Below, piece by piece: positions 818 through 18,921 of a DNA stretch of 20,654 bases. Position numbers and translations under genes: made by a program. Numbering within the stretch: the stretch's first letter is position 1; each line of letters starts with the position of its first letter. The stretch is taken from positions 1 to 20,654 of IMG/VR virus record IMGVR_UViG_3300044858_000980; one strand, 5' to 3'. The DNA comes from a virus. The notes under the pieces are model-generated. The model was not told the origin of the DNA, made no database searches, and worked only from the letters and a program-made list of their open reading frames with translations.

Positions 818-1672
818 TTAAGCCCAACTTACGTTTCCTGTGCCAGCAGTCACTGTTGTTACCTTAAATCCACCGCTAGGACTGGCAGTAGTTCCTGTTA
901 AACCTGCTCCGATAGTGATGGTTTTTGAGTCTGGATATTTTAGAATTACTGTGCCTGAGCCGCCATTAACACCGTTTGTACCAGTGCCAAAACATCCACC
1001 ACCACCGTTTCCAGTATTTGCTGCACCTGTTGTTCCTGTAGTGGCGGCAACTGGTGTTCCAGCACCACCCGAGGCTCTTGTTACAGAAGAACCAGTAATA
1101 GAACTGGCTGTACCAGCACCAGCAGCACCAGCACCACCGCCACTTGTACTTCCTCCAGCACCACCTGAACCTCCACCACCTGCACTTTGGTCACTTCCTC
1201 CAGTAACAGAACCACCAGCATATCCTTCTACTGGTGAATAACTACCAGCATTTCCAGTTCCACCAACTCCATCTGCTCTACCGCCACCGCCACCGCCAGA
1301 ACCACCTGAACGGCCACTTTCTTTTATCCCATCACCAGCACCAGGTTGATTTCCATCACCGCCTCCACCGCCACCTGAGCGTGTAATAGTGCTAAACACA
1401 GAATTACTACCACTAGCACCTCTACCGTCTGTTCCATTCCCTGCAATACCACCTGCACCGCCACCGCCAACAGTGACTGTGTAATTGGTTGATGCAGTTA
1501 ATCCAGTTAATGTTGCAGTTCCATAACCTCCAGCACCTCCACCGCCAGTACCAGCGTGCCAACTTCCACCACTTCCACCGCCTCCAGCAATAACTAAATA
1601 CTCAACATCAAATGGAATTACAGTGACTCCATCCCAAAAGGAATCAGACTCTCTAAAACTTCTGATAGTCAC
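818..1672 (-). CDS. Glycine-rich tail fibre/adhesin-like protein, paralog 3
   Basis: 284 aa starting at GTG (1672-1670), which shares one base with the TAG stop of the 114-aa gene upstream (TAGTG). The N-terminus carries VTVIPFDVEYLVIAGGGG (about residues 16-33), followed by long Gly/Ser/Ala tracts broken by short beta-type motifs: TASTNYTVTVGGGG, NSVFSTITRSGGGG and ITGSSVTRASGG. The last ~45 residues (VILKYPDSKTITIGAGL to GNVSWA) are nearly identical to those of the proteins at 2038 and 2961. This is the glycine-rich domain architecture known from phage tail tip and receptor-binding adhesins, where Gly-rich loops pack as polyglycine-II-like helices. Receptor contact is inferred from architecture and location. 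The third of three paralogs, it lies directly before the glycosyltransferase. Confidence 0.85.
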   Translation of the reverse strand: MTIRSFRESDSFWDGVTVIPFDVEYLVIAGGGGSGGSWHAGTGGGGAGGYGTATLTGLTASTNYTVTVGGGGAGGIAGNGTDGRGASGSNSVFSTITRSGGGGGGDGNQPGAGDGIKESGRSGGSGGGGGGRADGVGGTGNAGSYSPVEGYAGGSVTGGSDQSAGGGGSGGAGGSTSGGGAGAAGAGTASSITGSSVTRASGGAGTPVAATTGTTGAANTGNGGGGCFGTGTNGVNGGSGTVILKYPDSKTITIGAGLTGTTASPSGGFKVTTVTAGTGNVSWA

Positions 1673-2016
1673 TAGACTCGCTCAATCCAGTTCAGTGAAT
1701 CCTCATCCCAATCCCATAGACCTTCACCTTCTGGGCGAGGTACAGGAGATTCCCATAGACAAATATCTTCATTTAGTAACCAAGACTCATAAGGCTTAGG
1801 AGGAATAAAAGCATCTCTTACACTGTCAAAGGTGTAACCAATGCCAGCATAGTTCTTACGATAATTATTGTTGTAGGAGGTACGCTTGCAAGTTTGTCCT
1901 CTAAAGTTGCCATACCAAGTTTCAGTGTCTAAGCCTTCGATTAGCTCAGTTTCGTCAATGCCAGTGATTACTTCAGTGACAATGTTATTCTCATCTAAAA
2001 ACGCATAATGAGCCAT
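1672..2016 (-). CDS. Conserved 114-aa phage protein of the tail-fibre region
   Basis: 114 aa with a clear AAGGAG ribosome binding site 7 bases before ATG at 2016. It begins MAHYAFLDENNIVTEVITG and contains WYGNFRGQTCKRTSYN, RKNYAGIGYTFD and a Trp-rich C-terminus (SWLLNEDICLWESPVPRP). From memory, the MAHYAFLDENNIV/KNYAGIGYT pattern recurs in many marine and freshwater phages, including cyanophages, usually near tail-fibre genes. Its biochemical role is not known to me. It sits between the second and third glycine-rich fibre genes, sharing a base with the latter, which argues for a structural or fibre-associated role. It has no signal peptide or membrane segment and no recognised catalytic motif. 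Confidence 0.85.
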   Translation of the reverse strand: MAHYAFLDENNIVTEVITGIDETELIEGLDTETWYGNFRGQTCKRTSYNNNYRKNYAGIGYTFDSVRDAFIPPKPYESWLLNEDICLWESPVPRPEGEGLWDWDEDSLNWIERV

Positions 2017-2037
2017 TTATTTTCTCCTTGATTTCAT

Positions 2038-2961
2038 TTAAGCCCAACTAACATTACCAGTACCTGCAGTGAATGTGGTAACTTTGAAGCCACCTGAAGG
2101 TGAGGCTGTAGTACCAGTAAGTCCAGCACCAATGGTAATAGTTTTTGAGTCTGGGTATTTCAAAATCACTACACCTGAACCACCATTACCACCTGTTCTA
2201 GTACCACCAAAATTATTAGCACCTGAACCGCCGCCACCTGTGTTTGCACTTCCAGCAGAACCATTTGTATTTGGAGTGCCAGAAGCATTTGCTCCGCCAC
2301 CTGTTCCGCCAGTACCGCCAGTGCCAGAAAAATAAGCAGCACCACCACCGCCTCCAGCGTAAGTTACAGATGAACCTGTAATTGAAACTGCTACGCCATT
2401 TCCGCCGTTGCCACCAATGGTATTAGTTGTTGAATTACCTCCAACAGCCCCTGCACCACCACCACCGCCAGAGCCACCGCCAGTTGTGGCACTTCCACCG
2501 TCATAACCTTGGTTAGCAGTTCCATTTCCCTTTACACCATTGGCTGAACTTGAGCCTCCACCACTTCCACCATTTCTACCAGAGTGATTACCATTACCAT
2601 CTGGGTTTTGACCCTCGACACCACCACCTCCACCGCCTGTGGAAGTTATTGTAGAAAATACAGAATTAGCACCATTACCACCATAAGTAGTTGTACCAGT
2701 GCCACCAGCCCCAACAGTGACTGTGTAGTTAGTTGATACAGCAAGAGATAAAGCACTTTCTAAACTGCCCCCACCACCAGTTGCAGTGACTGTAGAACGA
2801 AGTCCTCCACCTCCACCTCCACCACTACCGTTAGCGTTAGTAAAAGGCCCACCACCACCAGCACCACCACCAGCAACAACTAAATAATTTACAATTAGTG
2901 GAAGTACAGTGTTATTACTATTAAACCTAACACCAGCATCTCTGAATCTATTCACTGTCAT
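2038..2961 (-). CDS. Glycine-rich tail fibre/adhesin-like protein, paralog 2
   Basis: The ATG at 2961-2959 is preferred (307 aa). It overlaps the stop of the preceding gene as TAATG and starts MTVNRF, aligning with MTVSRL of paralog 1. An in-frame TTG three codons further upstream (2970) is possible but would lengthen the overlap. The N-terminal anchor differs slightly from the other two copies (VLPLIVNYLVVAGGG rather than VIPFDVEYLVIAGGG). The body is Gly/Asn/Ser/Thr-rich with the same recurring beta motifs (TNYTVTVGAGG, NSVFSTITSTGG, ITGSSVTYAGG), and the C-terminal ~45 residues are shared with the other copies. A glycine-rich phage adhesin/fibre role is inferred. Its middle is the longest and most Asn-rich of the three. 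Confidence 0.84.
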   Translation of the reverse strand: MTVNRFRDAGVRFNSNNTVLPLIVNYLVVAGGGAGGGGPFTNANGSGGGGGGGLRSTVTATGGGGSLESALSLAVSTNYTVTVGAGGTGTTTYGGNGANSVFSTITSTGGGGGGVEGQNPDGNGNHSGRNGGSGGGSSSANGVKGNGTANQGYDGGSATTGGGSGGGGGAGAVGGNSTTNTIGGNGGNGVAVSITGSSVTYAGGGGGAAYFSGTGGTGGTGGGANASGTPNTNGSAGSANTGGGGSGANNFGGTRTGGNGGSGVVILKYPDSKTITIGAGLTGTTASPSGGFKVTTFTAGTGNVSWA

Positions 2962-3863
2962 TATGCCCAACTCACATTTCCAGTACCAGCAGTCACTGTA
3001 GTTACCTTAAATCCGCCACTTGGGGCTGCTGTAGTTCCTGTAAGTCCTGCTCCAATAGTAATTGTTTTTGAGTCTGGATATTTCAAAATCACTGTTCCTG
3101 AGCCACCTGCTGCACCGTTGTAAAGAGCAGTAGAACCAGTACCACCACCACCTCCACCACCGCCGCCAGTATTTACTGTTCCTGCAGTTGGGGCGGCTAC
3201 ACCACTACCATTAGAAATAAGAGTTCCACCAGTGCCACCTCCACCACTGCCACCAGTTGCAGCAACTGGAGTACCGCCACTAAAATTATTTGCACTAGCA
3301 CCACCACCACCACCTGCTCTAGTAACAGATGAGCCAGTTATTGAACTTGCAGAACCATTTCCACCAGTTCCTCCCCAACTACTTTGCGTAGTTGTTTGTC
3401 CAGCAGCACTAGCACCTCCACCGCCACCTGATGAATAGTTACCACCTGCACCAAAAGAGTCACCACCAGCATTACCTTGGCCTGAAGGAGAAGCAGCACC
3501 GCCTGCTGTTTGACCACCTGTTGAGCCACCACCGCCACCTGAGCCACCACTTCCTGCAGTTGCTCCACCTGCACCACCACCCGCTGCACCTTTTCCGCCA
3601 CCAGTAGAAGTAACAGTGCTAAATACTGAGTTAGAACCATTTGTATTGTTTGCGCCACCACCACCAACTGTGACTGTGTAGTTGGTTGATGCAGTTAATG
3701 AAGTTAATGTTGCAGTTTTGTAACCACCAGCACCTCCGCCACCGCCGCAATAATCGTGGCCACCGCCACCACCTGCGACTATTAAATACTCAACATCAAA
3801 TGGAATTACAGTGACTTGATCCCAAAACTTACCTTTATTTCCCTTTAATCGAGAAACTGTCAT
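2961..3863 (-). CDS. Glycine-rich tail fibre/adhesin-like protein, paralog 1
   Basis: 300 aa from ATG at 3863, two bases after the stop of the 109-aa protein; the upstream Shine-Dalgarno is weak, so translational coupling is likely. Order of elements: short basic N-terminus (MTVSRLKGNKGKF), anchor VTVIPFDVEYLIVAGGGG (residues 17-34), a body of about 220 residues with GGGG blocks and the motifs TASTNYTVTVGGGG, NSVFSTVTSTGGG and ITGSSVTRAGGGGG, then the shared C-terminal ~45 residues ending GNVSWA. This matches the glycine-rich adhesin type seen at phage tail tips. The anchor is closer to paralog 3 than to the neighbouring paralog 2, so the set did not arise by a single simple tandem copy, or conversion has occurred since. 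Confidence 0.85.
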   Translation of the reverse strand: MTVSRLKGNKGKFWDQVTVIPFDVEYLIVAGGGGGHDYCGGGGGAGGYKTATLTSLTASTNYTVTVGGGGANNTNGSNSVFSTVTSTGGGKGAAGGGAGGATAGSGGSGGGGGSTGGQTAGGAASPSGQGNAGGDSFGAGGNYSSGGGGGASAAGQTTTQSSWGGTGGNGSASSITGSSVTRAGGGGGASANNFSGGTPVAATGGSGGGGTGGTLISNGSGVAAPTAGTVNTGGGGGGGGGTGSTALYNGAAGGSGTVILKYPDSKTITIGAGLTGTTAAPSGGFKVTTVTAGTGNVSWA

Positions 3864-4208: not shown

Positions 4209-5875
<1,667 letters not shown>

Positions 5876-7160: not shown

Positions 7161-8120
7161 TTAGGAGTTGGCTCCGATTGAGCTTGAAGACTCAATACGG
7201 TAAATAGCATCTTCACGAAGAATGCTGTATCCAACAAAGTGCTTCCAGCCCATACCTTCGAAACGGCGTAGAGCGTCAGTCACTGGTACATCTACCATCA
7301 CTGGGTTTGAGGAATATCCTCCACCAGTTGAGAATGCCTTGGCAACTGCTTGACGGCCCATGATTAGTGTTCCATAAACATCAATGGTTCCAGTGGCAGC
7401 AGTTCCTGAACCATCTGATGCGTTTGCAAATAGCGGAGCACGAGATGTTTCAATGAACTGAACACCTTGGAAGTTACCAATTACACCGTTGTAGATGCCT
7501 GATGGGTCTGAATAGACATGTGGGTCTGCCCAGTTGGTTCCACCAGTTGCACCACGGAAGTCATAGGAAACATCTGGGTGGATGAATCCTTTGTACATTC
7601 CGTTGAATGTGCCAGCGTTGTTTGAGCGTAGGTTTGCAACCGCACGACGAACAGCATTGCCAGCAAGGGTATCTCCTGTAAGAACATTGGCACGAGAAGT
7701 ACCTGTTCCTGCGAAGATTGCGTTTGTACCTGTCTGGAAAGCGTTGCGAGCAACACCATCAATAGAGATACCAGCGTTGAAGCCAATTACATTGGCAACG
7801 ATTGGGTTCACTGCTGTGAAGGCAGTAGCACGCAACTTGGCTGATGTCTGAACAGCGTTACCGTATTCCTCAAGGGTTACAGTTACTTGTGAGTCATCCA
7901 ATGCAACTGGAGTCACTGTTCCTGTTTCGCCTAGTGGAGATGATGCTGCTGATAGATCAGCAATGATGGTGAACTTAACAGTTGCACCTGGGTTGGTTAG
8001 ATCAGTTGTCTGTACATCTACAACTGAGTCATAGTAAAGCTCTGGACGTAATGCGAAGTACATTAACTTCTCATACGCTGTCTGCGAAATGTTTAGATTC
8101 GCAATTTCTGTAATAGCCAT
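7161..8120 (-). CDS. Major capsid protein, N4-gp56-like HK97 fold
   Basis: 319 aa from ATG at 8120 (AAAGGAA about 9 bases upstream). It follows the scaffold-like gene directly. Recognisable pattern: MAITEIANLNISQTAYEKLMYFALRPELYYD at the N-terminus, TVTLEEYGNAVQTSAKL around residues 80-96 (the E-Y-G segment typical of N4-gp56-type major capsid proteins), GMYKGFIHPDVSYDFRG around 173-190, and a beta-rich C-terminus with MGWKHFVGYSILREDAIYRIES. The length is somewhat short but compatible with the family. No protease or cleavage delta-domain is visible. It forms the icosahedral shell. It is followed by tandem hairpins consistent with high expression. The assignment rests on pattern memory and gene order. 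Confidence 0.9.
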   Translation of the reverse strand: MAITEIANLNISQTAYEKLMYFALRPELYYDSVVDVQTTDLTNPGATVKFTIIADLSAASSPLGETGTVTPVALDDSQVTVTLEEYGNAVQTSAKLRATAFTAVNPIVANVIGFNAGISIDGVARNAFQTGTNAIFAGTGTSRANVLTGDTLAGNAVRRAVANLRSNNAGTFNGMYKGFIHPDVSYDFRGATGGTNWADPHVYSDPSGIYNGVIGNFQGVQFIETSRAPLFANASDGSGTAATGTIDVYGTLIMGRQAVAKAFSTGGGYSSNPVMVDVPVTDALRRFEGMGWKHFVGYSILREDAIYRIESSSSIGANS

Positions 8121-8139: not shown

Positions 8140-8637
8140 TTAGATTCGGAAAAACTGTCCTGGCCGAGAGTCGTCGAGAGGAACTCCCTCTTTCTGTAGA
8201 ATGTTTAGAACTTCATCTACAGATTCTGCTCTATTGATTGCATCTCGTGCGTCGTATTGACCCACGCTGTCTGCACCAGCAGAGGTGGATGCGATTCTTG
8301 AGTGAGCCGCTAGTTCTGCATTAGACACTGAAGGTGCTTCGGGTGCAGGTGTTGCCTGTCCGATTAGCCCAAACTCAGTGGCAGATGCCTTAATAGCCTC
8401 TACTGTTGCTTCGCCGTCGTATGCTTTCGCAAACAACTTTCCTGTTGGGGAATCCAAATCTATGCCTGCTTTGAGTAGAGCGAGTTCTCGTTTTGCTGCA
8501 TTTGCTTCTGCCTTGGCTGAGTCTGCTTCTTTTGCTTTACGCTCTAGTTGCTTTCTCCACTGTGGCTCTCGCTCTTGCTGAGGTTCGTTCTCCTCAAAAT
8601 CTTGGTCAAGATCGTTTTCTTCATATTGAGTTGTCAT
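8140..8637 (-). CDS. Scaffold-like head assembly protein
   Basis: 165 aa from ATG at 8637; AAAAGGA about 10 bases upstream. Layout: very acidic N-terminus (about 1-26, many Glu/Asp/Gln), a Lys/Ala/Glu coiled-coil segment (about 27-57, QLERKAKEADSAKAEANAAK), a helical middle with TGKLFAKAYDGEATVEAIKA, an Ala/Pro/Ser linker, and a C-terminal helix (ARDAINRAESVDEVLNILQ) ending GQFFRI. Acidic, coiled-coil proteins encoded directly before the major capsid gene are the usual phage scaffolds. The call is by composition and position; no maturation protease is present in or beside it. It follows the long structured gap, so its mRNA leader may be regulated. Confidence 0.78.
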   Translation of the reverse strand: MTTQYEENDLDQDFEENEPQQEREPQWRKQLERKAKEADSAKAEANAAKRELALLKAGIDLDSPTGKLFAKAYDGEATVEAIKASATEFGLIGQATPAPEAPSVSNAELAAHSRIASTSAGADSVGQYDARDAINRAESVDEVLNILQKEGVPLDDSRPGQFFRI

Positions 8638-8718
8638 TTTGTTTCAGTCCTTTTCCATATCGCACACTGTCGGACAAACAACAATGTGGTGGGGTCTTCC
8701 CGAGTTAATTTGTTTTTT

Positions 8719-8731
8719 GAGCGCAATGCTC
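8719..8731 (-). other. Small GAGC/GCUC hairpin
   Basis: Four base pairs around a 5-base loop, followed on the minus strand by an A-rich run. Weak on its own; listed because it is the third fold in a row in the leader. Confidence 0.2.
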
Positions 8732-8767
8732 GTAATAGATACCTGATGACCTACCAGGAGCTACTAC
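8732..8767 (-). promoter_or_regulatory. Bulged stem-loop in the head-gene leader
   Basis: Minus RNA GUAGUAG pairs with CUAUUAC (7 bp, one G-U), then a CU/UAU internal loop, then CCUG pairs with CAGG around a 9-base loop. The G-U would be an A-C mismatch on the other strand, supporting a minus-strand transcript. Confidence 0.4.
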
Positions 8768-8779
8768 CTTCACTCATTT

Positions 8780-8830
8780 ATGGTTCTCAGTGACTCTAGT
8801 GGTAAGTCACTACGCTTCAAGCGGAACCAC
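8780..8830 (-). promoter_or_regulatory. Three-way-junction RNA candidate in the head-gene leader
   Basis: In the minus-strand RNA, UGGUUC (8829-8824) pairs with GAACCA (8786-8781), plus a closing G-U. Enclosed are a 4-bp hairpin CGCU/AGCG with a 3-base loop (8823-8813, stacked directly on the outer stem) and a 6-bp hairpin GUGACU/AGUCAC with a 9-base loop (8810-8790). Junction linkers are 0, 2 and 3 bases. The compact geometry resembles a cis-regulatory or structured RNA. I do not recognise a named riboswitch class. Confidence 0.4.
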
Positions 8831-8883
8831 CTCTGACTTCCTGTAGAAATCGTTTGAGGCAATAAGATAAATGTAGCATAAAT

Positions 8884-8930
8884 AGTGACAACCCCACAAT
8901 TAGGACTCGGATAACTGTGGGGCTGTCAGT
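8884..8930 (-). terminator. Strong stem-loop after the 622-aa gene
   Basis: Starting 7 bases after the TAA at 8937, the minus RNA forms 16 consecutive base pairs (8928-8913 with 8886-8901, including the GCCCCACA / UGUGGGGU core) around an 11-base loop. Two G-U pairs would be mismatches on the plus strand. The 3' flank is AUUUAUGCUAC, A/U-rich but without a clean U-run, so it is either a terminator or a transcript-end stabiliser or processing site separating the upstream operon from the scaffold/capsid genes. Confidence 0.62.
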
Positions 8931-8936
8931 GTAAGT

Positions 8937-10805
8937 TTAGCGTGCTGCTCGCCTTAATCCTGTGACTCCTTGCTGTCCTTCAGCAAAGCCACCTCCTGTT
9001 TGGTATTCAGCCAAACGACGACGCTGTTCTCTTTCAAGTTGGGCTTGGGCAGATACATCTCCTGCTACTACACCTCTTAGTAGTTCTTGCTCAGTCACTG
9101 CACCACCTTCGCCACCTAATACTTGTTGTGACAATGGGCGTAGAACTCCTGCTGATTGAGCAGCCTGAGTTAGTTCTTTGTAATCCAGTGTGGTGTCTGT
9201 TGCTCCACCTAGAACAGAGCCAGTGAGTTCTTCTGCTTGTGCAGTGCCAAATCCTGCTTGCTGTAAGGCTGCTGCTGTTTGAGCCACATTGTATTGTCGT
9301 TGTAGGAATGGCTTAGTCTTCTCAGGGTTCAAGAAGTAAGCCACTAGCCCTGACTCGTCAATGTTGTAACGCTCTTTAAGTTGTGCCTTGATAGCAGGGT
9401 CTGCTGTTTGAGAGGCTCTTTGAGCCAAAGAAACCCTTCCTGTAAACTCATTGTAAGAAATGTCATTAGCAAGATAGGTAGTGAAATCATCTTGATTATC
9501 AAACAGTTGGCTTGGTAATCCTGCTTCTCTTAAAGTATCTCGATAAAGTTTTTCCATATTTAGATACTCAGCCTCAGACAGTGCTGGAAGTCCTTTAGAC
9601 ACTCTAGTTGCGTTAGCAGCAAATCTTTTCTTGTAAGCATCAGTTTGTCTTAAAGCTAATGTGATAGAAGCCTCTGATAAATCTTCAGTAATTAGTTGAT
9701 CTATGGCATTAAAGAAATCATCTCCAAGACCAAATTGCTGAGCAAGAAGTCTTGCAAAATCTCTAGCACCTCGAAGTGCAGATGTAACAGGAGCAAGAGT
9801 TGTAGGAACTACTGGAATAGGAATTACATCACCGTTTGCTCCGCCACCGCCTCTTCCGCCACCGCCTCCTCCTCCACCAGCTCCGCCTTGACCACTTCCT
9901 GTATCTTCATCAGTAAAAGGAACAGGTCCTCTTAATGCTGCTTGTAGTCTTTCTCGTTCTGCTCTTTCAGCAGCAGTTGTACTACCACGCTGATCTGCTA
10001 TTACTCTTAATTCTTCTATTCTATTTAATGCTGCTAAAGATTCTTGAGTAGTTAATAATCCAACACCAGATTTTGCTTTTTCTAATTTATTTTGTAATGC
10101 AATTAGTTCTGGGTTAGATTGAATTTGTTGTGCAGTTAAGCCTCTGGCTTCTAATTCACGACGCTTGGCTGTAACGGCATTTATTGCTGCTTTGCGAGCT
10201 TCTTCTGCTGAAGCAGATATTTCTTGATTTTTAGGTGCATTGATTGCATCTGTAAATGATGTTTGACCAGTAGAAACTATTCTGCTAGGAACAGTCGTTG
10301 AACTTACATCACGGGTAGGGGTCGTATCAGTAACTTGAACTAAAGGGGTAGAACCTTCTACTGCTGCTGCCGAAACTTTTGTTGATGGAATATCTGTAGT
10401 TTTAGCAGGTGCTGTAGTCCTTGGTCCTTCTACTGCTGCTGGTGAAATTCTGCCAGCAGCAGGTGGAGGTGGTGGTGGAGCATCAGGATATGGAAGGGCT
10501 GCTCCAATGGCTTTAGCCTTTGCGTTAGCATCTGTTTCTATTTTTGCAACTTTTGCTGCTTCTATTTTTTTTGCTTCTTCGGCTTTAGAAGTAGTTGTCA
10601 CTCGTTCTGTTGGTTTAGAACTAGGTACTACAGGTTTTGGTATTTTTGTTTGGATTGCCTTAGTTGCAATCTCGGCTTCCTCTTGTTTTGCTTTTTTGTA
10701 TTTTGCGGCTGCTTTGTAAATTGGAGAACTCTTTGGATATTCAGCCAAATATGTTTCAATTTGGTTAGTATCTAATTTAACGCCATCAATAGTTACTACT
10801 GCCAT
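8937..10805 (-). CDS. 622-aa large structural protein, unknown role
   Basis: 622 aa from ATG at 10805, four bases after the stop of the 388-aa gene. Layout: helical Lys/Ala N-terminus (1-60) with YPKSSPIYKAAAKYKKA; Pro/Ala/Thr-rich low-complexity region (about 100-200, including PPPPPPAAG and two copies of AAVEG); helical coiled-coil-like segment (about 200-300); a short Gly run (about 305-325); then a folded helical domain (about 335-560) with TLALRQTDAYKKRF, LSEAEYLNMEKLYRDTLREA and LNPEKTKPFLQRQYNVAQ; the C-terminus is Gln/Gly/Arg-rich. From memory the LRQTDAYKKRF...SEAEY...LREAGLP pattern recurs in structural proteins of actinobacterial phages. A virion-internal or tail-tip role is inferred. 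The N-terminal half looks A+T richer than the C-terminal half. Confidence 0.8.
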   Translation of the reverse strand: MAVVTIDGVKLDTNQIETYLAEYPKSSPIYKAAAKYKKAKQEEAEIATKAIQTKIPKPVVPSSKPTERVTTTSKAEEAKKIEAAKVAKIETDANAKAKAIGAALPYPDAPPPPPPAAGRISPAAVEGPRTTAPAKTTDIPSTKVSAAAVEGSTPLVQVTDTTPTRDVSSTTVPSRIVSTGQTSFTDAINAPKNQEISASAEEARKAAINAVTAKRRELEARGLTAQQIQSNPELIALQNKLEKAKSGVGLLTTQESLAALNRIEELRVIADQRGSTTAAERAERERLQAALRGPVPFTDEDTGSGQGGAGGGGGGGGRGGGGANGDVIPIPVVPTTLAPVTSALRGARDFARLLAQQFGLGDDFFNAIDQLITEDLSEASITLALRQTDAYKKRFAANATRVSKGLPALSEAEYLNMEKLYRDTLREAGLPSQLFDNQDDFTTYLANDISYNEFTGRVSLAQRASQTADPAIKAQLKERYNIDESGLVAYFLNPEKTKPFLQRQYNVAQTAAALQQAGFGTAQAEELTGSVLGGATDTTLDYKELTQAAQSAGVLRPLSQQVLGGEGGAVTEQELLRGVVAGDVSAQAQLEREQRRRLAEYQTGGGFAEGQQGVTGLRRAAR

Positions 10806-10809
10806 TTTA

Positions 10810-11976
10810 TTATCCCATCAGTCCAAAGTCCTTGAGGACTTTTAGCATTATGTTGTCGTAGCTTGCTCTTGCGTTTGAAGTCTTCTGCCAGCGTGGGTCT
10901 TTGCGTAAATCTTTTTCAAACTGCCAGATTGGTTTGGTCATAAATTGACCTTGTTCGTTTTGCATATTCACTGCTTGTTGGATAGTTGGGTCAGTGTAGT
11001 CAATACTGTTTTCATCTATCTCAAGGATATTAGACATTGCTCTCTTGTATGGTGAAGTAATAGAGTCAAAGGTTTCTCCCTTGTTGATTCTATCTGCTAC
11101 TCCTACATATCTAGATGCTGCTGATTGCCTGATGTCATCTAAGAAGTCTTCCACTGATTGACCTTTACCAACTAGGGCTGCCTTCTCTGCGTACCAGTTA
11201 GTACCCATATCAATTCCATACTGACGAGCAGCATTTTTTAGTTGGTCTTGGGCCTTGCCTAATACTCCATCTACATCTTCAGTGGCAAACTTATTGGCTA
11301 GGTAACCACGAGCCCAAGAGTTAAGATCAAATCCTGGGGTTGTTTCAGTGACAGTGCGATTACCTTTTCTTACTACTTTTGTTACAGCAGGAGCCTTAGC
11401 AGCAGCCTTTACAAGAGCAACACGCAAATCTTCTATCTCACTAGAACTGCCAGCCCTGCCAATTGTTTCTTTGAAAAACTCTTGAGCCCTAATGCGTGCT
11501 TGTTTAGCAGCATCTGATCTATCCCCTACTTGTGGTAATCCATAGTTCACTGCTGATTCAGTTACAGAAGGACCTGAAGGAAGATTAGTACCAACAGTTC
11601 TTGGCATCCTTGTTATGTATTCATCAGTAGTAATAGGAATACCTATTGCTGTTAATTCATTTACATCATCAACGACACCTTTGTAAATACTAATTACTTG
11701 GTCTGGACTTGCAGTGGATTGGATTTTTCCATTTTCAATAAGTAAGTTTCTAATACGGCTGTATTCAGTGTCAGGTTGCAAACCAAGAGCCTGAGCCTTC
11801 ATTCTTGCAAAAACGGCACTTGAAACTCCAGCCCTTCCAGCAGCAAAGTATTTTTTCAGCTCTTCAATGTTAAAATCTCCTGAAGGCTTAGGGGCTGTTT
11901 TACGAATAGTAGAAATACCAGCACCATTATCAACTTCTAAGTTATCTTGAATGCCGTCTTTGTCTTTGTCAGCCAT
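10810..11976 (-). CDS. 388-aa structural protein with calcium-loop-like N-terminus
   Basis: 388 aa; ATG at 11976 overlaps the stop of the 1532-aa gene (TAATG), with GGAG 8 bases upstream. Residues 3-16 (DKDKDGIQDNLEVD) match the DxDxDGxxD calcium-binding loop found in EF-hand and thrombospondin type 3 repeats; only one copy is present. The remainder is helical and mixed-charge, with LKKYFAAGRAGVSSAVF, ARGYLANKFATEDVDG and YASRYVG-like segments, and a C-terminal block with PIWQFEKDLRKDPRWQKT and ARASYDNIMLKVLKDFG. From memory, the WQFE..LR.DPRW...NAR ending is shared with large structural proteins of actinobacterial phages. Likely a virion protein working with its two large neighbours; the exact role is unknown. 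Confidence 0.8.
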   Translation of the reverse strand: MADKDKDGIQDNLEVDNGAGISTIRKTAPKPSGDFNIEELKKYFAAGRAGVSSAVFARMKAQALGLQPDTEYSRIRNLLIENGKIQSTASPDQVISIYKGVVDDVNELTAIGIPITTDEYITRMPRTVGTNLPSGPSVTESAVNYGLPQVGDRSDAAKQARIRAQEFFKETIGRAGSSSEIEDLRVALVKAAAKAPAVTKVVRKGNRTVTETTPGFDLNSWARGYLANKFATEDVDGVLGKAQDQLKNAARQYGIDMGTNWYAEKAALVGKGQSVEDFLDDIRQSAASRYVGVADRINKGETFDSITSPYKRAMSNILEIDENSIDYTDPTIQQAVNMQNEQGQFMTKPIWQFEKDLRKDPRWQKTSNARASYDNIMLKVLKDFGLMG

Positions 11977-14900
11977 TAGTCAATCTCCTCTAGTGTGTCG
12001 GAATCTAAAAATCTGTTGTAGAAGGTGGTAAAGGTTCCTGTAGGGTCAAGAGTAGCAACATAGCTAACTGCTCGTTCCCAAACAAACTTGAGATCGTCAT
12101 TTTGCTTGGCAGCGATATTACTAGAACCCCCTGTTTTTTTGCGATTTTGGAGTTCTGTTGTAACTTGGTTTCGGATGTTTTTGTACTCAAGGAAGGCATC
12201 CCAAACTGGCTCATCTCCTCGCTCAGCCATAAATTTCTTATCATCAAGAACAACATCTATGGCCTTTAAGAAAGAAACGAAACGCTTAGAACCAGCACCC
12301 TCACTGTAGTCTTTCCACCATACAAAGTTTTCATTTCTTTTGGATTCAACAAAAACTTTTTTTACATAAGCCAAATCTTCAGCCCCTGATTCACTGTAGG
12401 ACTCTAAGCCACGCTTAGATAGTTCTGCATCTAATTGTGTTTTGACTTGGGTGTATTCAATCCAACCTCTTTGTAAGGCGTTAATGGCAGCAATTTCATC
12501 TACTGGGGTCATTTCACGATAAGGCTTGCCAGTACGATATTCATTGGTTAATTGCCAAATGTAAGCATTTTGGTCAAAGGTTGTAGGAGCACCTGAGCGA
12601 TTAGTTATTAGTTGAGTAAATTCAGGTGAGAAACCATTTCTAGGGTCTGTAATTTTGGCAATAAGTTTTGGGTATTTTCGTGCGTAATTTACTGCATCAA
12701 GGTTAGGGTTAATACCAGTTGGGTTACGAGTTAAAGAGAAAAACATTTCGAAGTAATCTGGGTAATCCTGATAAAAGCGTACGGCTGCATCAGGTCCAAA
12801 CTTAGTTCTGTATTCTCTTGATTTGTTAATGTAGAACTCTAGTTCAGGGCGATACTTTATTGACACTGGTAAAGTTAAAGCAGAGGCAATTCGTAAAAAA
12901 GTAAAAGAATTAACTCTACTTTTCATTTCTGAATCTGTAGGTGGCTCTGCTCTTAAACCATTACGATATTTATTATTTTCAATTTGTGTAGAAATAATAA
13001 GATCGCTTGCATAGTCTCTAGCATCTTGTTGTTTCCAAGCATTTAATGCTTGTTTTATCACGCTTGGTAAAACAATATCGTAGGAGCCCAATTCTCTTGA
13101 TGGTCCTCTAGGAATAAAATAATTTGTAATTTGAGTAACGCTAGGAGTAGGGAACTGTTTAGCAACTTGAGAAGCAAAAACTTGTGTAAAAACTCCATCA
13201 CCAATTCTCCACCAATCTTCTCCTTGAAGAATTAAGTTAGCAGAACCTTTAGCAAAACTAATTGTTTCTTTGCCAGCCAATGCTTTACCTAGTGGAGTAT
13301 TACGCATCCAATTAGGAATTTGCATTGTGACTACATCTTGATCTATCTGTTCATCACGCTGGATTAAACCTGCTCTTTCAGGGGCTTGATAAATGTATCC
13401 AGCACGAGCTAATAGGCTTGGGTCGTTGTACACCAATTTAGCCCAAACTCTTGCAGTGTTTTCTTGAGCAGCAAAGAACGGTTCTAAAAAGCGAACAAAT
13501 GTAGAAATGTTGCTGTAGCGTTCAATAGTGTAAAGAGTTCTTCTAGTTTCGGCTAAAGCAGTACGACGAGCATTAGCAACTATTTTATTTAATTCAGTTC
13601 TAGTCAAAGATACATTTTGACTTATTCTTAAATCAATGCTTTCTTTAAGTGTTCTTTTGTACACTGCACCTGCAAATGGATGTCTTACAAAAACATCTTC
13701 AGGCATAGCACCAATGTACTTAAAGATTTTTCTAACAGTTTTATTGTATCCAAATCTTGGATCTGTCATTTCTTCAATTTTATCACCGTGAATAGCTTTT
13801 AAGTCTTTTCTACCTTGTAAAGCCAAACGCAAATCTGCAGCAGTAATTTCTTCATTAGCTACTCGTTTTTGTAGATTTGCATCAGGAAAATATCTATCTA
13901 CTGCGTAACTCATTTGGAGAGCATAGTCTTCAGGGTCTTGTGCTCTTGAAAAACGAAATTCTTTTCTACCTTCAGGAGTGTTTCTTAAATAATCTACTAC
14001 CTCATCAACAGTTTTACCTTGTAGTAATTGTTTAGGTGTTTCAGCATTTCTAAACTGACGAGCAGCTCTTTCTAGTCCAATAAAATAATTAGGGTCGTCA
14101 GGTTCTAATTTAGTAAATCCTGCTGACCGATACCTTGCTTGATCTACACCACTAAATACCCTACCTGGAGAAGATATTTCACGAGCAACACGACCTTCAG
14201 TGCCAGCCAAATTTGCTAATACTGCGCCAAAATCATCTTCAAATGCTTCAGGAGCAGTTACACCCCTGTAAGAAAGAATTCCTTCGTTACGGCGATAACG
14301 ATTTCCTTTTAATCCTTTAGCATTTGCTTGTTTTACATAAGATTTTATTTTATCTGTAGATTCTTTTATGTATGTTTCACGAGCATTTATTTCGTCAAGA
14401 ATTTGATCTTTGCGAATACTGTCAGCTGCATCATCTCCAAGTTCGTTAAGTTCTTCTTTTAGATTGTCTATTTTGTTTTTTGAAATTTGCATAAAATCTT
14501 CTTGAGCTTTAATAAGGCTTTGCCAAGAAGCCCTAAGTGGAGGTAACTTAACTTTTGTACCTTCAGTTTTTGCTAATAATTTTGCTTCATTTACCATACG
14601 ACCATAATTTAATATGCTTGCGTGACGATTTTTGTACCAATTTGCTGTTGCTTTAGAAACATCTTTAGGTGAATGTATTGCAAATAAACCACCTAAAGCA
14701 GCAACTGCTCTTAATGTTCCTTCACCGACATTTCTCTGTGGGTATCCAAGACGCATCAAAACTAATGGTCGCCATATTTGATCTAAGGTATCCATTAAAC
14801 TTATTACACCACCCCTAAGTTTAAGATCGGCTTGTTTCCAAGAGTTAGCATTTGCACCAAGTGCTTTATCTAAAGCGATAATATCTACAATTGGCATACT

Positions 14901-16574
14901 ATCTGCTAATTGAGATGATAGTTGTGGGGCAACAATTCTTCTTCCTTCTTCATCTATTAAGAAAGTGTTTTCTTTGTAAAATTTAATAGCATTTGATCTT
15001 CTTTTTTCTAATTCTTTAATAATTTCTTTAGCATCATTGGTTGATATTCCATATTTTTTAGCAGTATCTCTAATTGCTACTTGTTCTAATCTATTTACAA
15101 TTCTTTGACGGCTTATGTCATCAGTTGCTGATAGCCAATTATTGATAAATGATTTGCGTTGTTCAGGAGTAAAAGCAGATACCTTGCCAACAAAGGCTTC
15201 AATTTCACCTACTGAGTCACTGGAGTTAATTCCTTTAATTCGTACCCAACCTGAAGGTCGTTCTCTAAATGGCCAACTAACTACACCAACAGTGGCAACA
15301 AAAGGGTTGCGACGGAAATACTCAATATCCCAAACTTTGTTTTGGCTTGTAGAAAGTTCTCCTCTTAAAACTGCTTTATCAGCCCTTACTTTTTCTACAG
15401 CATTAAACACTGAAGGACCTCTGTAGCCTACTTTAGATTCTGCTGCTTCTATTGCTCTAGCCAAATAAGCATCTTTTTTAATTAAATCTTGAAATTCTAA
15501 ACCAAGAGCTTTTCTATTTTCTCTTAGTAAAGCCAATTCGTGAATATCTTGCCCTTGTTTTGCAGCGTAAATATGTTGTTTTATTTCTCCAAGAGCAGTG
15601 CGTGATCTTTCTAAAGCAAACCAAGTGCTTGCTGATTCTTCAGCTAACAATCTTTGGGCATTAACATCACCTATTGCAGAACGATAAATAAGTCCTGCTC
15701 TGTAAAGATCAGTATTTTCTCCCAACAAACCTGCTAAGGCTTCAGGATTAGAAGAATTTTTAATTACTCTATGGTTTTTTAATTGGTTTCCATCTGCTAC
15801 TGTTGTAAAACGTAAAAATTCATCTATGCCATCAGAATATCTAATTGAATCTAAATCTTTTTTTGTTGCATTAAATTGTTTTTCTAGTCGTGGTAAGGAA
15901 CGATTAAGTTCAATTCTTTCTGTTTCAATGTCATCTAAAGTCCTACCAGTAATAGCAGTGTTTTCTAAATCTAATTCATCTAAACGATTTTTTGTAGCAA
16001 GGTAAAGTGATCTAACATCTTCTGCTTTAGCAACTTTATCTATGTCTGTTTTAGCAATTACTTTATCTGGAGTTACTTTTGTATCTAAATACTTTAACCT
16101 ACCTAATTTTCCTAATTTACCAAATGCGTAAAAAGGAGATACAAAACTGCCAGCAATTAAGTCTGCTGTACCAGTTAATAAGTTAAATCCACCAAAGCGT
16201 TCTTCTCGTTCTTTTTCGTCATAAGGATTGTAGAGTTTGCCAGTTTTAGGATTGTATGAACTTGGGCTAAAGAACTGACCTATCTTATTTCCAAATATGT
16301 TATCGGCAATACTTTCTAAACGGTAAGTAGCGGCATTAGCCATTGAGATTGATTGGGCTGCTTTTTTTTGTTGTTCTTTTGTTGCTGTTTGACCTTGGAT
16401 AGTGTCAGGTAGAAAAAAATCAGAAATGTTTTGACGAACTAAGTTTCCTTTTAGAGTTTCACCTTCTAGTATTCCTAGTTTTTCAAATGGAGTTAAAAGT
16501 GCTTGTCCAATTTTAGTTCCAAGGTTTTTGAAAGTACCAAAAATACTTCCGCTTGGTTGCGGATTAAGACTCAT
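11976..16574 (-). CDS. 1532-aa giant virion protein, probable internal/ejection protein
   Basis: 1532 aa from ATG at 16574 (AAGGA 6 bases upstream). It begins with an amphipathic segment (FGTFKNLGTKIGQALLTPFEK, residues ~13-33). Around 128-152 a hydrophobic Gly/Phe patch occurs (LLTGTADLIAGSFVSPFYAF), then long charged helices (~165-350). Around 590-630 is IWRPLVLMRLGYPQRNVGEG followed by ALGGLFAIHS. A coiled coil follows at ~681-745, then VRFLEPFFAAQENTARVWAK at ~1020-1042. The C-terminal third has several Tyr/Trp-rich helices. There are no catalytic motifs I can assign (no lysozyme, peptidase or MuF motif seen) and no tape-measure-like periodicity. Size, helicity and position in the structural module suggest an internal-virion or DNA-ejection protein, but this is inference. 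Its central and N-terminal coding region (about 12,900-16,560) is clearly A+T richer than the C-terminal end. Confidence 0.82.
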   Translation of the reverse strand: MSLNPQPSGSIFGTFKNLGTKIGQALLTPFEKLGILEGETLKGNLVRQNISDFFLPDTIQGQTATKEQQKKAAQSISMANAATYRLESIADNIFGNKIGQFFSPSSYNPKTGKLYNPYDEKEREERFGGFNLLTGTADLIAGSFVSPFYAFGKLGKLGRLKYLDTKVTPDKVIAKTDIDKVAKAEDVRSLYLATKNRLDELDLENTAITGRTLDDIETERIELNRSLPRLEKQFNATKKDLDSIRYSDGIDEFLRFTTVADGNQLKNHRVIKNSSNPEALAGLLGENTDLYRAGLIYRSAIGDVNAQRLLAEESASTWFALERSRTALGEIKQHIYAAKQGQDIHELALLRENRKALGLEFQDLIKKDAYLARAIEAAESKVGYRGPSVFNAVEKVRADKAVLRGELSTSQNKVWDIEYFRRNPFVATVGVVSWPFRERPSGWVRIKGINSSDSVGEIEAFVGKVSAFTPEQRKSFINNWLSATDDISRQRIVNRLEQVAIRDTAKKYGISTNDAKEIIKELEKRRSNAIKFYKENTFLIDEEGRRIVAPQLSSQLADSMPIVDIIALDKALGANANSWKQADLKLRGGVISLMDTLDQIWRPLVLMRLGYPQRNVGEGTLRAVAALGGLFAIHSPKDVSKATANWYKNRHASILNYGRMVNEAKLLAKTEGTKVKLPPLRASWQSLIKAQEDFMQISKNKIDNLKEELNELGDDAADSIRKDQILDEINARETYIKESTDKIKSYVKQANAKGLKGNRYRRNEGILSYRGVTAPEAFEDDFGAVLANLAGTEGRVAREISSPGRVFSGVDQARYRSAGFTKLEPDDPNYFIGLERAARQFRNAETPKQLLQGKTVDEVVDYLRNTPEGRKEFRFSRAQDPEDYALQMSYAVDRYFPDANLQKRVANEEITAADLRLALQGRKDLKAIHGDKIEEMTDPRFGYNKTVRKIFKYIGAMPEDVFVRHPFAGAVYKRTLKESIDLRISQNVSLTRTELNKIVANARRTALAETRRTLYTIERYSNISTFVRFLEPFFAAQENTARVWAKLVYNDPSLLARAGYIYQAPERAGLIQRDEQIDQDVVTMQIPNWMRNTPLGKALAGKETISFAKGSANLILQGEDWWRIGDGVFTQVFASQVAKQFPTPSVTQITNYFIPRGPSRELGSYDIVLPSVIKQALNAWKQQDARDYASDLIISTQIENNKYRNGLRAEPPTDSEMKSRVNSFTFLRIASALTLPVSIKYRPELEFYINKSREYRTKFGPDAAVRFYQDYPDYFEMFFSLTRNPTGINPNLDAVNYARKYPKLIAKITDPRNGFSPEFTQLITNRSGAPTTFDQNAYIWQLTNEYRTGKPYREMTPVDEIAAINALQRGWIEYTQVKTQLDAELSKRGLESYSESGAEDLAYVKKVFVESKRNENFVWWKDYSEGAGSKRFVSFLKAIDVVLDDKKFMAERGDEPVWDAFLEYKNIRNQVTTELQNRKKTGGSSNIAAKQNDDLKFVWERAVSYVATLDPTGTFTTFYNRFLDSDTLEEID

Positions 16575-16576
16575 AT

Positions 16577-16735
16577 TTATTCCTTAGTGATTATGCCAAT
16601 AAGGTCCTCATGCTGATCTGGTGTTAAGTCGCTGACTTGTGCCAGACCCCAAGCGAGAGGAGCGTTGTCAAACCCGAAGGCATCAAGATACTTCGAAAAG
16701 TTCAATGCCCACGCTGGCGTAGAGTCGAGTGCCAT
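16577..16735 (-). CDS. 52-aa acidic microprotein between structural genes
   Basis: The frame runs from ATG at 16735 to TAA at 16577. AAAGAG lies 8 bases before the start and the ATG follows the preceding TGA by one base; the next gene starts 2 bases after its stop. The gene fills the interval exactly, which supports reality. Sequence: MALDSTPAWALNFSKYLDAF, then GFDNAPLAWGLAQVSDLTPD and a helical end (HEDLIGIITKE). It is net acidic and Trp/Leu-rich, unlike the basic cluster after the capsid. No family recognised. It could be a small assembly factor or a partner for the 1532-aa protein. Confidence 0.72.
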   Translation of the reverse strand: MALDSTPAWALNFSKYLDAFGFDNAPLAWGLAQVSDLTPDQHEDLIGIITKE

Positions 16736-16736
16736 T

Positions 16737-17177
16737 TCACACGCTCTTTAGATAAAGTACGAAATCTCTTAAAACTTGTGGTGAGTCTTGTGCTTGTGCC
16801 ACTGTTTCAATTACTGGGATGTAACCCTTTAGTCTTTGCATATCGTCACCCATAGTGTCAGGTGTAAATGATGGACCAGGACCTGCACCAAAAGGTGCTC
16901 CTGCAGTGATTGGCTCATCAGCAAATTGAGTAGGAGCTGATAAAGGTATTGGTTGTTCCATTGGCATTGGTGGGGTCATAGAAGTATCCACTGGAGGTGC
17001 TTGAGTTCTACCCATTGGCACTGCTCTTTGGGAATCTTCTAATTGCTTACGCATACCTTGTTGCATTCCGCTTGGTGCTGAAATAGGCAACTTAGCAGCA
17101 GGATTTAAGTCAGTACGATTGGTGTAAGCCTTACCAACCTGACCGTTTCTGCTACCGCCTCTACCTCTACTGGCCAC
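16737..17177 (-). CDS. 146-aa portal-adjacent protein, Gly/Arg N-terminus and Pro/Met-rich middle
   Basis: 146 aa from GTG at 17177, supported by AGGAG 6 bases upstream; it overlaps the end of the portal gene by 11 bases. It starts MASRGRGGSRNGQVGKAY, followed by TNRTDLN (about residues 19-25), a Pro/Met/Gln-rich disordered middle (MTPPMPMEQPIPLSAP) and a helical C-terminus (YIPVIETVAQAQDSPQVLRDFVLYLK). From memory, a GxRGG...Q..YxNRTDLN N-terminus directly after the portal is common in actinobacterial and environmental phages. The function is unknown; a small head-tail or portal-associated protein is a reasonable inference. Not a clear adaptor by sequence. Confidence 0.8.
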   Translation of the reverse strand: MASRGRGGSRNGQVGKAYTNRTDLNPAAKLPISAPSGMQQGMRKQLEDSQRAVPMGRTQAPPVDTSMTPPMPMEQPIPLSAPTQFADEPITAGAPFGAGPGPSFTPDTMGDDMQRLKGYIPVIETVAQAQDSPQVLRDFVLYLKSV

Positions 17178-18921
17178 CTAATGCTCCTAATAATTGATCT
17201 AATGATGGGGCTGGTCCTTGTGCTTGCTCTACTGGTTGCTCTGCTCCCATACCTGGCATAGATAGTCCTGGCATAGTTTCAGGGGCTCCCACTGGAGCAG
17301 GTGTGGCTTGACGCTCTTGTGCTTCTCTTTGGACCTTCTCCACTGCTGCTGCTAAATCTAACTTATCACTGATTACGAGTTTCATAATCTTAGCCAAGTC
17401 TGCAGGTGGTATTGCTCCTTGAGCAGCTTGTGTTTGAACTGCGGATAGTAGTGCTGCTTCTAGTGATTCACTCACTGTTCTATCGTGCTCTATTTCAGGG
17501 TCAGAGATCAATGGGTCAATCTCTTGGGCTGTTCTCTTAGACATTGTTCCAATACCTACACGCTGTCCTAGTCCTACAACAAGGGCGTTAGCATCTGCTC
17601 CTGCGTAAGCGTACGTCACTGTGTTTGCATCTGTTTCAAAATCTTTGTTAGGGATGTAATCAACATGCCCCTTGACCTTGCCTTGAGATACATAGAATGA
17701 ACGACGCTGATTACCAAAGTAAGACTTAGCAATAGCGATTGCTCTCTTGTTTTCCTCGACCAGTGAGGCAGCAAGAATCTCTTGGGCTTCTTGTACTGGG
17801 AAGTCCACTACGGCAGAAAGGATTGCGTCACCACGCTTGCCAGTTCTAATGTTAGAAGTAGATTCACCACCGAACTCAGCAGGTGTTCCTGAAGTAATAC
17901 GCATATTGCGTTCTAGGCGATCAATGGTTGCGTTAGCAGCAGTGCCTTGGCCCATACCTGCTTCTCTGATCTCACCACCTTGGATGATATTTACCATACC
18001 TGTTCTGCCGTCATACGGACCAGAAATAAATTTGGCTGACTCACCTGGGCGTGATACTAAGTAAGTGTCAGGGAAGATGCCTCGCTCAACTGCAATGACC
18101 TCTAGTGCCATAAGTTTTGCTTGCAACTGATACATACCAACAAGTCCATCAAACTGACCCATTGCTCTATCAAGAGTAATACGACCTGGTACAACTGCTA
18201 GGTTCATACCTGTTCTGTTTGGTACTCGTTCTAGTTCTACATAACTTGCGCCACTGGATAAGCCTGGTGTTACTTGTTCACCAATCACTGCGGTAACTAG
18301 GATGTCACCATCCATGTACTCCAATAGTTCAAACATAGTGTTTGGGTCTGCATTGGCACGCTTGTTTAGTTTGCCCATCTGCTCAGGATAGTTTTCTTGC
18401 AACCACCTGTAGCCACGCTTAAAAGTAAAGATTGCATCTGGTGGACACATCTCATCTGGGTCCTCAGTTGGTGCAACGAAAGTAGATAGTGGGTTTCTTA
18501 CTTCCCACTTAGCAATACCACGCTTAGGGTCTGGTCTTAACACTACAGGTGATGATGCGTAACCAATCATTAGCCTTGCACGACGACGAAGTTTAAGTGG
18601 AAGTTTGTTTGCTTCCCACCAACCTAGAGTTGCACGACGGCGAGTGTTAGCTCTTTTCTCACTAGCGTTGTTCCCAGGTTCTAAAGCAGGATAAAAACAA
18701 TTTGGGTAAGTGGATGCGATACGCATAGCACTTTGATCTAGTCCAGTGGCAATTAAGTTAGCCACAGCACTTGCCTCGGACTTATCCATCTCAGGCAGTG
18801 GGATAATAATGTCGCCGTTGTATGCGTCACGAAGTTTTTGCATACGGCTAATCACTGGCGATTGTGCTCTCTTGCGTTCCTCTAGTAGAGCTATTATCGA
18901 ATCGAGCGAAGGTCCTGACAA
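17167..18921 (-). CDS. Portal protein
   Basis: 584 aa from TTG at 18921, supported by GGAAGG 8 bases upstream and by its position one base after the stop of the 61-aa gene; no ATG lies within the first 20 codons. The pattern fits phage portal proteins: N-terminal helix (LDSIIALLEERKRAQSPVIS), LRDAYNGDI, a basic helix with WWEANKLPLKLRRRARLMIGY (~100-121), a beta-rich wing (RNPLSTFVAPTEDP; ERVPNRTGMNLAVVPGRI), the central stem-type helices (RTGKRGDAILSAVVDFPVQEAQEILA, ~365-390), and a Gln/Pro-rich C-terminal tail. Portals form the 12-subunit ring through which DNA is packaged and ejected and bind the terminase. Placement two genes after the large terminase agrees. Subtype (SPP1-gp6 versus other) not determined. 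Confidence 0.86.
   Translation of the reverse strand: MSGPSLDSIIALLEERKRAQSPVISRMQKLRDAYNGDIIIPLPEMDKSEASAVANLIATGLDQSAMRIASTYPNCFYPALEPGNNASEKRANTRRRATLGWWEANKLPLKLRRRARLMIGYASSPVVLRPDPKRGIAKWEVRNPLSTFVAPTEDPDEMCPPDAIFTFKRGYRWLQENYPEQMGKLNKRANADPNTMFELLEYMDGDILVTAVIGEQVTPGLSSGASYVELERVPNRTGMNLAVVPGRITLDRAMGQFDGLVGMYQLQAKLMALEVIAVERGIFPDTYLVSRPGESAKFISGPYDGRTGMVNIIQGGEIREAGMGQGTAANATIDRLERNMRITSGTPAEFGGESTSNIRTGKRGDAILSAVVDFPVQEAQEILAASLVEENKRAIAIAKSYFGNQRRSFYVSQGKVKGHVDYIPNKDFETDANTVTYAYAGADANALVVGLGQRVGIGTMSKRTAQEIDPLISDPEIEHDRTVSESLEAALLSAVQTQAAQGAIPPADLAKIMKLVISDKLDLAAAVEKVQREAQERQATPAPVGAPETMPGLSMPGMGAEQPVEQAQGPAPSLDQLLGALGGQ

Follow-up and report, generated by a model that had tools for sequence, protein, structure and literature searches.

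In short-tailed actinophages four genes, here called x, G, M and T, are placed between the portal and the scaffold gene. This placement is a rule of the group and not the oddity of a single phage, because G, M and T are known from Streptomyces podoviruses, where they are named "hypothetical" or "minor tail" proteins. We think it probable that the four genes form a variant of the podophage ejection module which is relocated to a position ahead of the scaffold gene and exchanged between phages as a cassette. That G, M and T are located in the virion and are ejected from it is what we infer from their sequences. The original prediction, which named three large proteins as candidates for an ejection or internal-virion complex, is supported by synteny, by the hydrolases found on M, by the exclusion of cysteine, by the fusion of a domain called H, by a motif common to M and T, and by block replacement between related phages.

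Layout of the locus

The window, i.e. the whole stretch of DNA analysed, comprises the 20,654 bases of a virus record from IMG/VR, and TerL and the gene at the left end are both incomplete at the window ends. On the minus strand the genes are read in the order TerL, portal, x, a 52-aa ORF, G, M, T, a 165-aa scaffold-like gene and MCP (Table 1); beyond MCP the same strand encodes small proteins, a collagen-like fibre and glycine-rich proteins. The three ORFs of 1532, 388 and 622 aa that had been predicted between portal and scaffold are present, and they overlap or abut as had been claimed: the stop of G and the start of M share one base, and M and T are separated by 4 bases. The interval originally assigned to them (8937-16574) holds all three ORFs but leaves out the 146-aa x and the 52-aa ORF, which belong to the same set. 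In 41 of 122 loci more than 100 bases separate x from G, and many of these gaps contain a small ORF like 'GQWFDDMGSLALAF'.

Table 1. Features of the window and tRNA gene clusters of related loci (E, E-value).
Feature	Position	Strand	Evidence or remark
TerL	runs off window end	-	phrog_38, E 7e-47
Portal, upstream flank	17167..18921	-	20.7% identity, E 5e-6, to annotated Kumquat portal; iterative profile
x, 146 aa	16737..17177	-	phrog_8200; cysteine-free; replaced along with G-M-T in E7/F5
52-aa ORF between x and G	16577..16735	-	sequence
G, 1532 aa	11976..16574	-	phrog_10618; no cysteine
M, 388 aa	10810..11976	-	phrog_6654; H domain and conserved C-terminal domain; no hydrolase
H domain in M (residues 58-217)	11326..11805	-	separate gene in many relatives (Kumquat gp10)
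M conserved C-terminal domain (residues 223-388)	10813..11310	-	holds LRKDPRWQK motif
T, 622 aa	8937..10805	-	phrog_8424; no cysteine
T N-terminal ~195 residues	10221..10805	-	missing in closest relative L006 (425 aa)
T helical core (residues 339-610)	8976..9791	-	conserved, mostly high pLDDT; holds LRQTDAYKK motif
Scaffold-like, 165 aa, downstream flank	8140..8637	-	phrog_7813; 99% identity to L006
MCP, downstream flank	7161..8120	-	PF13252, E 1e-33; phrog_1357, E 3e-67
tRNA gene clusters	L002 16011-18024; L003 16164-18211; L004 16464-18329		

The Kumquat portal that served as reference matches phrog_104 at E 3e-54, and the window portal is 98% identical to that of L006. The family of the scaffold-like protein also contains Kumquat gp35, which is the positional counterpart of the annotated Dennebes scaffolding protein. 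In the Pfam scan none of the window proteins G, M and T passed a family cut-off. In PHROGs they match families of unknown function (G at E 3e-73, M at E 2e-38, T at E 6e-57). No confident tape-measure, MuF or receptor-binding match was found for them in the Pfam and PHROGs scans, and no MuF match is listed in either at the thresholds used. The three proteins had been described as unknown, which is right in so far as their PHROGs are function-less, but they are already in the databases as Streptomyces podovirus proteins, under the names hypothetical, minor tail, peptidase or glycosylase.

Elsewhere in the window, positions 3-782 hold an incomplete gene of a phage beta-1,4-glycosyltransferase family (phrog_13126, E 6e-55). 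Positions 818-3863 encode three glycine-rich proteins (PF21722) whose C-terminal ends are almost the same, beside the collagen-like fibre (4209-5528); the long antisense ORFs around them look like by-products of the repeats.

Distribution and gene order

A tblastn search covered 50,697 phage records and detected G in 29 of them, M in 30 and T in 30. These are Streptomyces phages throughout, with OX376640 in addition for M and T. The three Streptomyces records that were inspected are Beephvirinae with the same gene order as the window, and OX376640 is the cultured Planktophila phage E7, whose host is a freshwater 'Ca. Nanopelagicales' bacterium (PMC10202952). Profile-based scans of IMG/VR confirmed 27 G loci, 513 T stretches and 382 M stretches; 80 T and 80 M stretches were kept.

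The order P-x-G-M(-M)-T-S-C was found in each of the 88 loci that cover the whole stretch between portal and MCP, and it was broken in none of 191 loci, all of them obtained through matches to G, M or T. The 88 complete loci represent 82 distinct T sequences, some contigs having been fetched twice, and in two of them (order PxMTSC) the profile called no G. In loci L156 and L184, ORFs of 1,780 and 1,792 aa without cysteine look like G genes that the profile missed. The synteny thus extends over Streptomyces podoviruses (Beephvirinae) and cultured 'Ca. Nanopelagicales' phages. In other words, the placement before scaffold and capsid that had been noted for the window is confirmed, though not as a peculiarity of this phage. 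T relatives also occur in bacterial genomes, among them Streptomyces hoynatensis and S. composti; they were detected in 3 of 396 genomes of the Streptomyces phylum, one of which is the centre genome itself, and in none of 14 control genomes. In a literature search of mostly non-subscription sources we noticed no title or abstract on an x-G-M-T module or on an ejection complex of actinobacterial podophages.

We also note that in Streptomyces phage JXY1 (MN994275, 3606-4492) the capsid match spans two annotated ORFs, perhaps by a frameshift or a sequencing error.

Cysteine content

It is conspicuous that G, M and T of the window contain no cysteine in 2,542 residues. The same tendency is seen in the families: G, T and x together have 4 cysteines in 133,344 aa. 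The G representatives have 3 in 89,553 aa (52 of 55 cysteine-free), those of T 1 in 36,018 aa (91 of 92) and those of x none in 7,773 aa (55 of 55). M representatives have 24 in 42,128 aa (80 of 104 cysteine-free); 19 of the 24 are in a catalytic-type NlpC motif and none is within the last 230 residues. The flanking genes have 17 cysteines in 10,462 aa (scaffold), 13 in 7,682 (MCP) and 35 in 7,207 (portal). The background, calculated from 249 other same-strand genes of at least 200 aa, is 5.07 cysteines per 1000 aa with 93 genes cysteine-free; it leaves out 42 H-like genes and still includes two evidently missed G genes (L156, L184). The cysteine-free background genes of at least 400 aa are mostly fibre or collagen-like by sequence.

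Known ejection proteins resemble the module in this respect. T7 gp15 and gp16 and P22 gp7, gp16 and gp20 have no cysteine and T7 gp14 has one; "no cysteine", which holds for 5 of these 6 proteins tested, is our own criterion and not a published definition. Cysteine is likewise absent from the virion RNA polymerase of N4-like phages, for which injection was given as the reason (PMC3915230; the absence is also stated in PMC4837373). The word "cysteine" does not occur in the main text of a review on ejection proteins (PMC8954989). The tape measures of lambda and phiC31 and some fibres are also cysteine-free, so the absence of cysteine alone does not mean ejection from the head.

M, the H domain and the motif common to M and T

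M consists of a conserved C-terminal domain behind a changeable N-terminus. The earlier statement that the proteins have no enzymatic signature holds for the window phage in Pfam but fails for the family: among 104 M representatives, NlpC/P60 domains were found in 19, SLT in 11, SLT_3 in 3 and LysM in 1. Kumquat has a pair of M proteins with the same C-terminal domain, gp11 with an NlpC/P60-type and gp12 with a transglycosylase-like N-terminus. One M member touches the P22 Inj_translocase profile (E 0.004). A calcium-binding N-terminus of M (DKDKDG) was also considered and dropped, the motif being present in only 2 of 236 M ORFs.

In most loci an H gene lies between G and M. Of the 40 loci that lack H as a gene of its own, 36 have an H domain within M, as against 1 of the 104 loci with a gap; the profile behind this count had taken in M hits. 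An HMM built from the separate H genes alone finds the window M at E 4e-5, and at 9e-18 after one iteration. Judged by these matches, H, a separate gene in relatives, is fused into M in the window. The W/Y motif that had been reported for two of the proteins is real, and is found in M and in T, but it is C-terminal only in M. M and T have in common a helical motif of 49 columns (hhalign probability 81%, E 1.2e-5). In the model of T (mean pLDDT 75.9) a helical core is predicted with confidence, and a linker with low confidence.

One alternative is that the proteins are external tail parts, i.e. that M is a murein hydrolase of the tail tip and that G and T belong to the short tail or its appendages. 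GenBank calls the M homologues of Streptomyces phages "minor tail protein", and Kumquat gp11 matches tail-lysin PHROGs, mainly via its hydrolase domain. However, x-G-M-T sits among head genes, before the scaffold, whereas the candidate short-tail genes (phrog_7578 and phrog_11667, neither with a function named in PHROGs, the former annotated "tail tube protein" in Kumquat) come after the capsid in both Kumquat and E7. The extreme scarcity of cysteine in G, compared with the 5.07 per 1000 of other genes, also argues against it, although fibres are often poor in cysteine too. We regard an external position as unlikely.

The giant protein G

The model of G (residues 333-1532) is mostly helical with few beta-hairpins (mean pLDDT 75.3). 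Among 30 G members no enzymatic domain was recognised and no match to LPD38 (PF18857) was found. There is no clear membrane segment: the hydropathy window maximum is 1.29 in the window phage, the median maximum of G is 1.21 and values of at least 1.6 are reached in 4 of 55 representatives; T7 gp14 (1.31) and gp16 (1.44) are likewise below 1.6 on the same scale. Comparison with T7 gp16 gave no sequence similarity (hhalign prob 0.1). A sequence search of solved structures with the G, M and T profiles gave nothing useful, the best row for M being a designed protein (E 0.011). VIA-align aligned mostly short helical stretches of T (residues 190-250) and of the G model (340-424), with Z up to 6.7 and 9.3, respectively, a level that the tool rates as a common arrangement; no conclusion follows from these rows, nor from phage ejection proteins missing among them.

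In the BFVD structure search several "large polyvalent protein associated domain" proteins appear below G's own family (best at rank 11, E 0.0069, prob 0.80, low TM-score). This search with a predicted model hints weakly at LPD38-type proteins, and G may be a distant analogue or relative of the LPD38 giants. A kinship at the sequence level was considered because G and LPD38 have RN..RD and PF..A motifs in common. It was not upheld, as the profile comparison, made with first 7 and then 30 LPD38 sequences, was non-significant (hhalign E 0.05-0.08 vs 0.5 for reversed controls). LPD38 is listed as a phage-only polyvalent domain in PMC5512222. Some records name LPD38-related giants (L208 4405-8247 and others) "type I restriction enzyme methylase" or "DarB-like antirestriction".

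According to a further alternative, G is an effector packaged in the head, a payload with a polyvalent, DarB-like or antirestriction function, and M and T help to package it. The BFVD matches point in this direction; the LPD38 giants are cysteine-poor as well (67 of 89 cysteine-free), and the swapping of G described below would suit an arms race. Yet G members lack a recognised enzymatic domain, the LPD38 comparison is non-significant, and the wall hydrolases of M fit entry better than a payload. Moreover, pelagiphage HTVC204P has the order internal virion protein, LPD38 giant, tail fibre. A payload function thus appears improbable to us, somewhat more so than a place on the tail. That G is the tape measure of a long tail is hardly credible: it is long, helical and cysteine-free as tape measures are, and 1 of 30 members touches TMP_2 at E 0.086, but none of the 30 exceeds the cut-off of a TMP profile, the BFVD tape-measure matches are weaker than the polyvalent ones, the G gene precedes the capsid, and the relative Abafar is a podovirus with a very short tail by electron microscopy (PMC11536984).

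The G+C content of G in the window is 0.359 compared with 0.46 in portal and MCP. This is no evidence of recent transfer, because in all 54 of the 54 loci compared G lies below the mean of portal and MCP.

Block replacement between near-identical phages

The cultured phages E7 and F5 infect the same 'Ca. Planktophila' strain. Their DNA is 96-98% identical on either side of E7 8373-16921, the stretch that corresponds to x-G-M-T. The break starts 89 bases inside x and stops 10 bases short of the end of T. Accordingly the protein identity falls from 96% in the portal to 46% in x, 21% in G, 24% in M and 27% in T, and is 99% in both scaffold and MCP. Further differences between the two phages are short or missing matches at E7 1-2833 and past 38376. 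The paper on these phages described an 8-kbp island of three (E7) or four (F5) hypothetical proteins without homologues in the other phage (PMC10202952), which we identify with the x-G-M-T block because size, gene number and position agree. Our profiles detect G of F5 at E 3e-66, M at 9e-28 and T at 1e-19. Contrary to the published statement, G, M and T of E7 and F5 are thus divergent homologues, and the island can now be read as a swapped orthologous cassette.

In three further pairs (L064/L104, L091/L083 and L116/L129) the upstream break has almost the same position, but DNA similarity persists at the 3' ends of M and T. A milder replacement is seen between the window and L006, whose portal, scaffold and MCP are 98-99% identical and whose G is 81% identical, while the N-termini of M and T are replaced. 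The C-terminal domain of M is 96-100% identical per 50-residue bin in this pair, and its N-terminus differs.

Co-divergence was calculated for 1128 pairs from 48 loci; the protein-identity comparison left out pairs whose G proteins are more than 97% identical. Given MCP and portal, M has the highest partial correlation with G (0.43), followed by x (0.33), and T and the scaffold both stand at 0.11. In general, x, G and M co-diverge. Co-divergence of all four genes is not upheld, since T tracks G no more than the scaffold does, though T is exchanged in E7/F5.

Comparison with known systems

The Beephvirinae (Manuel, Kumquat, Dennebes) are like the window in their portal-scaffold order and have counterparts of G (gp9 in Kumquat numbering, ~24% identity), M (gp11 and gp12, ~34% in the C-terminus) and T (gp13, ~40% in the core). 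They differ in that H is a gene of its own and M is present twice, once with an NlpC/P60 and once with a lytic-transglycosylase-like N-terminus; in the window a single M contains H and lacks a hydrolase. Unlike the window they carry 19-22 tRNA genes between T and the scaffold, exactly at the downstream edge of the cassette. The Planktophila phages LanE43AprE7 and LanE43AprF5 (OX376640/1), which infect freshwater Actinobacteria, have a single-M x-G-M-T set like the window, although G of E7 is only 19% identical to the window G and the two phages bear different versions of the block.

The ejection proteins T7 gp14-gp15-gp16 and P22 gp7-gp16-gp20 are likewise large, all but gp14 cysteine-free, and encoded with virion genes. 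One T7 component, gp16, has a transglycosylase, and the x-G-M-T family similarly has hydrolases on M, though not on the proteins of the window. The T7 and P22 genes follow the capsid and tail genes, whereas x-G-M-T precedes the scaffold. Homology to the T7 (gp14/15/16) or P22 (gp7/16/20) proteins was not found by hmmsearch or hhalign; the best hmmsearch result among 33 reference proteins was T with T7 gp16 (E 0.007), in scattered pieces. Even among known ejection proteins conservation is given as below 10% (PMC8954989).

Bacillus phage Page has the same MCP lineage as the window (E 1e-41) and a cysteine-free set of a hydrolase and a giant. This set, gp18-gp20 (L195 17622-24825), comprises a Q/W-rich 417-aa protein, an NlpC/P60+SLT protein and a 1679-aa giant with LPD38, all cysteine-free. 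Unlike x-G-M-T it is late, after the fibres, and LPD38 is undetected in G. We consider gp18-gp20 a candidate ejection set in a Gram-positive podophage.

Discussion

An ejection module suggests the following course of events. The proteins x, G, M (with H fused in the window) and T would be built into the procapsid on the portal, and after adsorption would leave through the portal and the short tail. Chains without cysteine could not be trapped by disulfides outside the reducing cytoplasm. G would form or line the conduit, and in the phages that have it the hydrolase-bearing M would open the wall. Since M of the window has H and no hydrolase, its wall opening would have to come from an unrecognised domain or from a gene outside the fragment. 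The conserved C-termini of M and T would be the docking parts, whereas G and the N-termini of M and T may face the host and diversify.

The review cited above draws its ejection proteins mainly from phages of Gram-negative bacteria and describes the phi29-like phages of Gram-positive bacteria as being without them (PMC8954989). How short-tailed phages pass the thick actinobacterial wall is the question for which x-G-M-T is a widespread and syntenic candidate machine, and one with cultured, testable members, i.e. the Streptomyces phages and the two phages on one 'Ca. Planktophila' strain. The exclusion of cysteine may in addition be a cheap screen for ejected proteins. More tentatively, and as a possibility rather than an expectation, we suggest that actinobacterial podophages have an ejection machine without sequence kinship to the machines of T7, P22 and N4. 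It would be built beside the portal at a stage when the scaffold is yet to be made, with a swappable x-G-M-T, docking C-termini and host-facing, diversifying parts, and which phages of one host strain exclude each other on superinfection, or are compatible with its envelope, may depend on the type of cassette.
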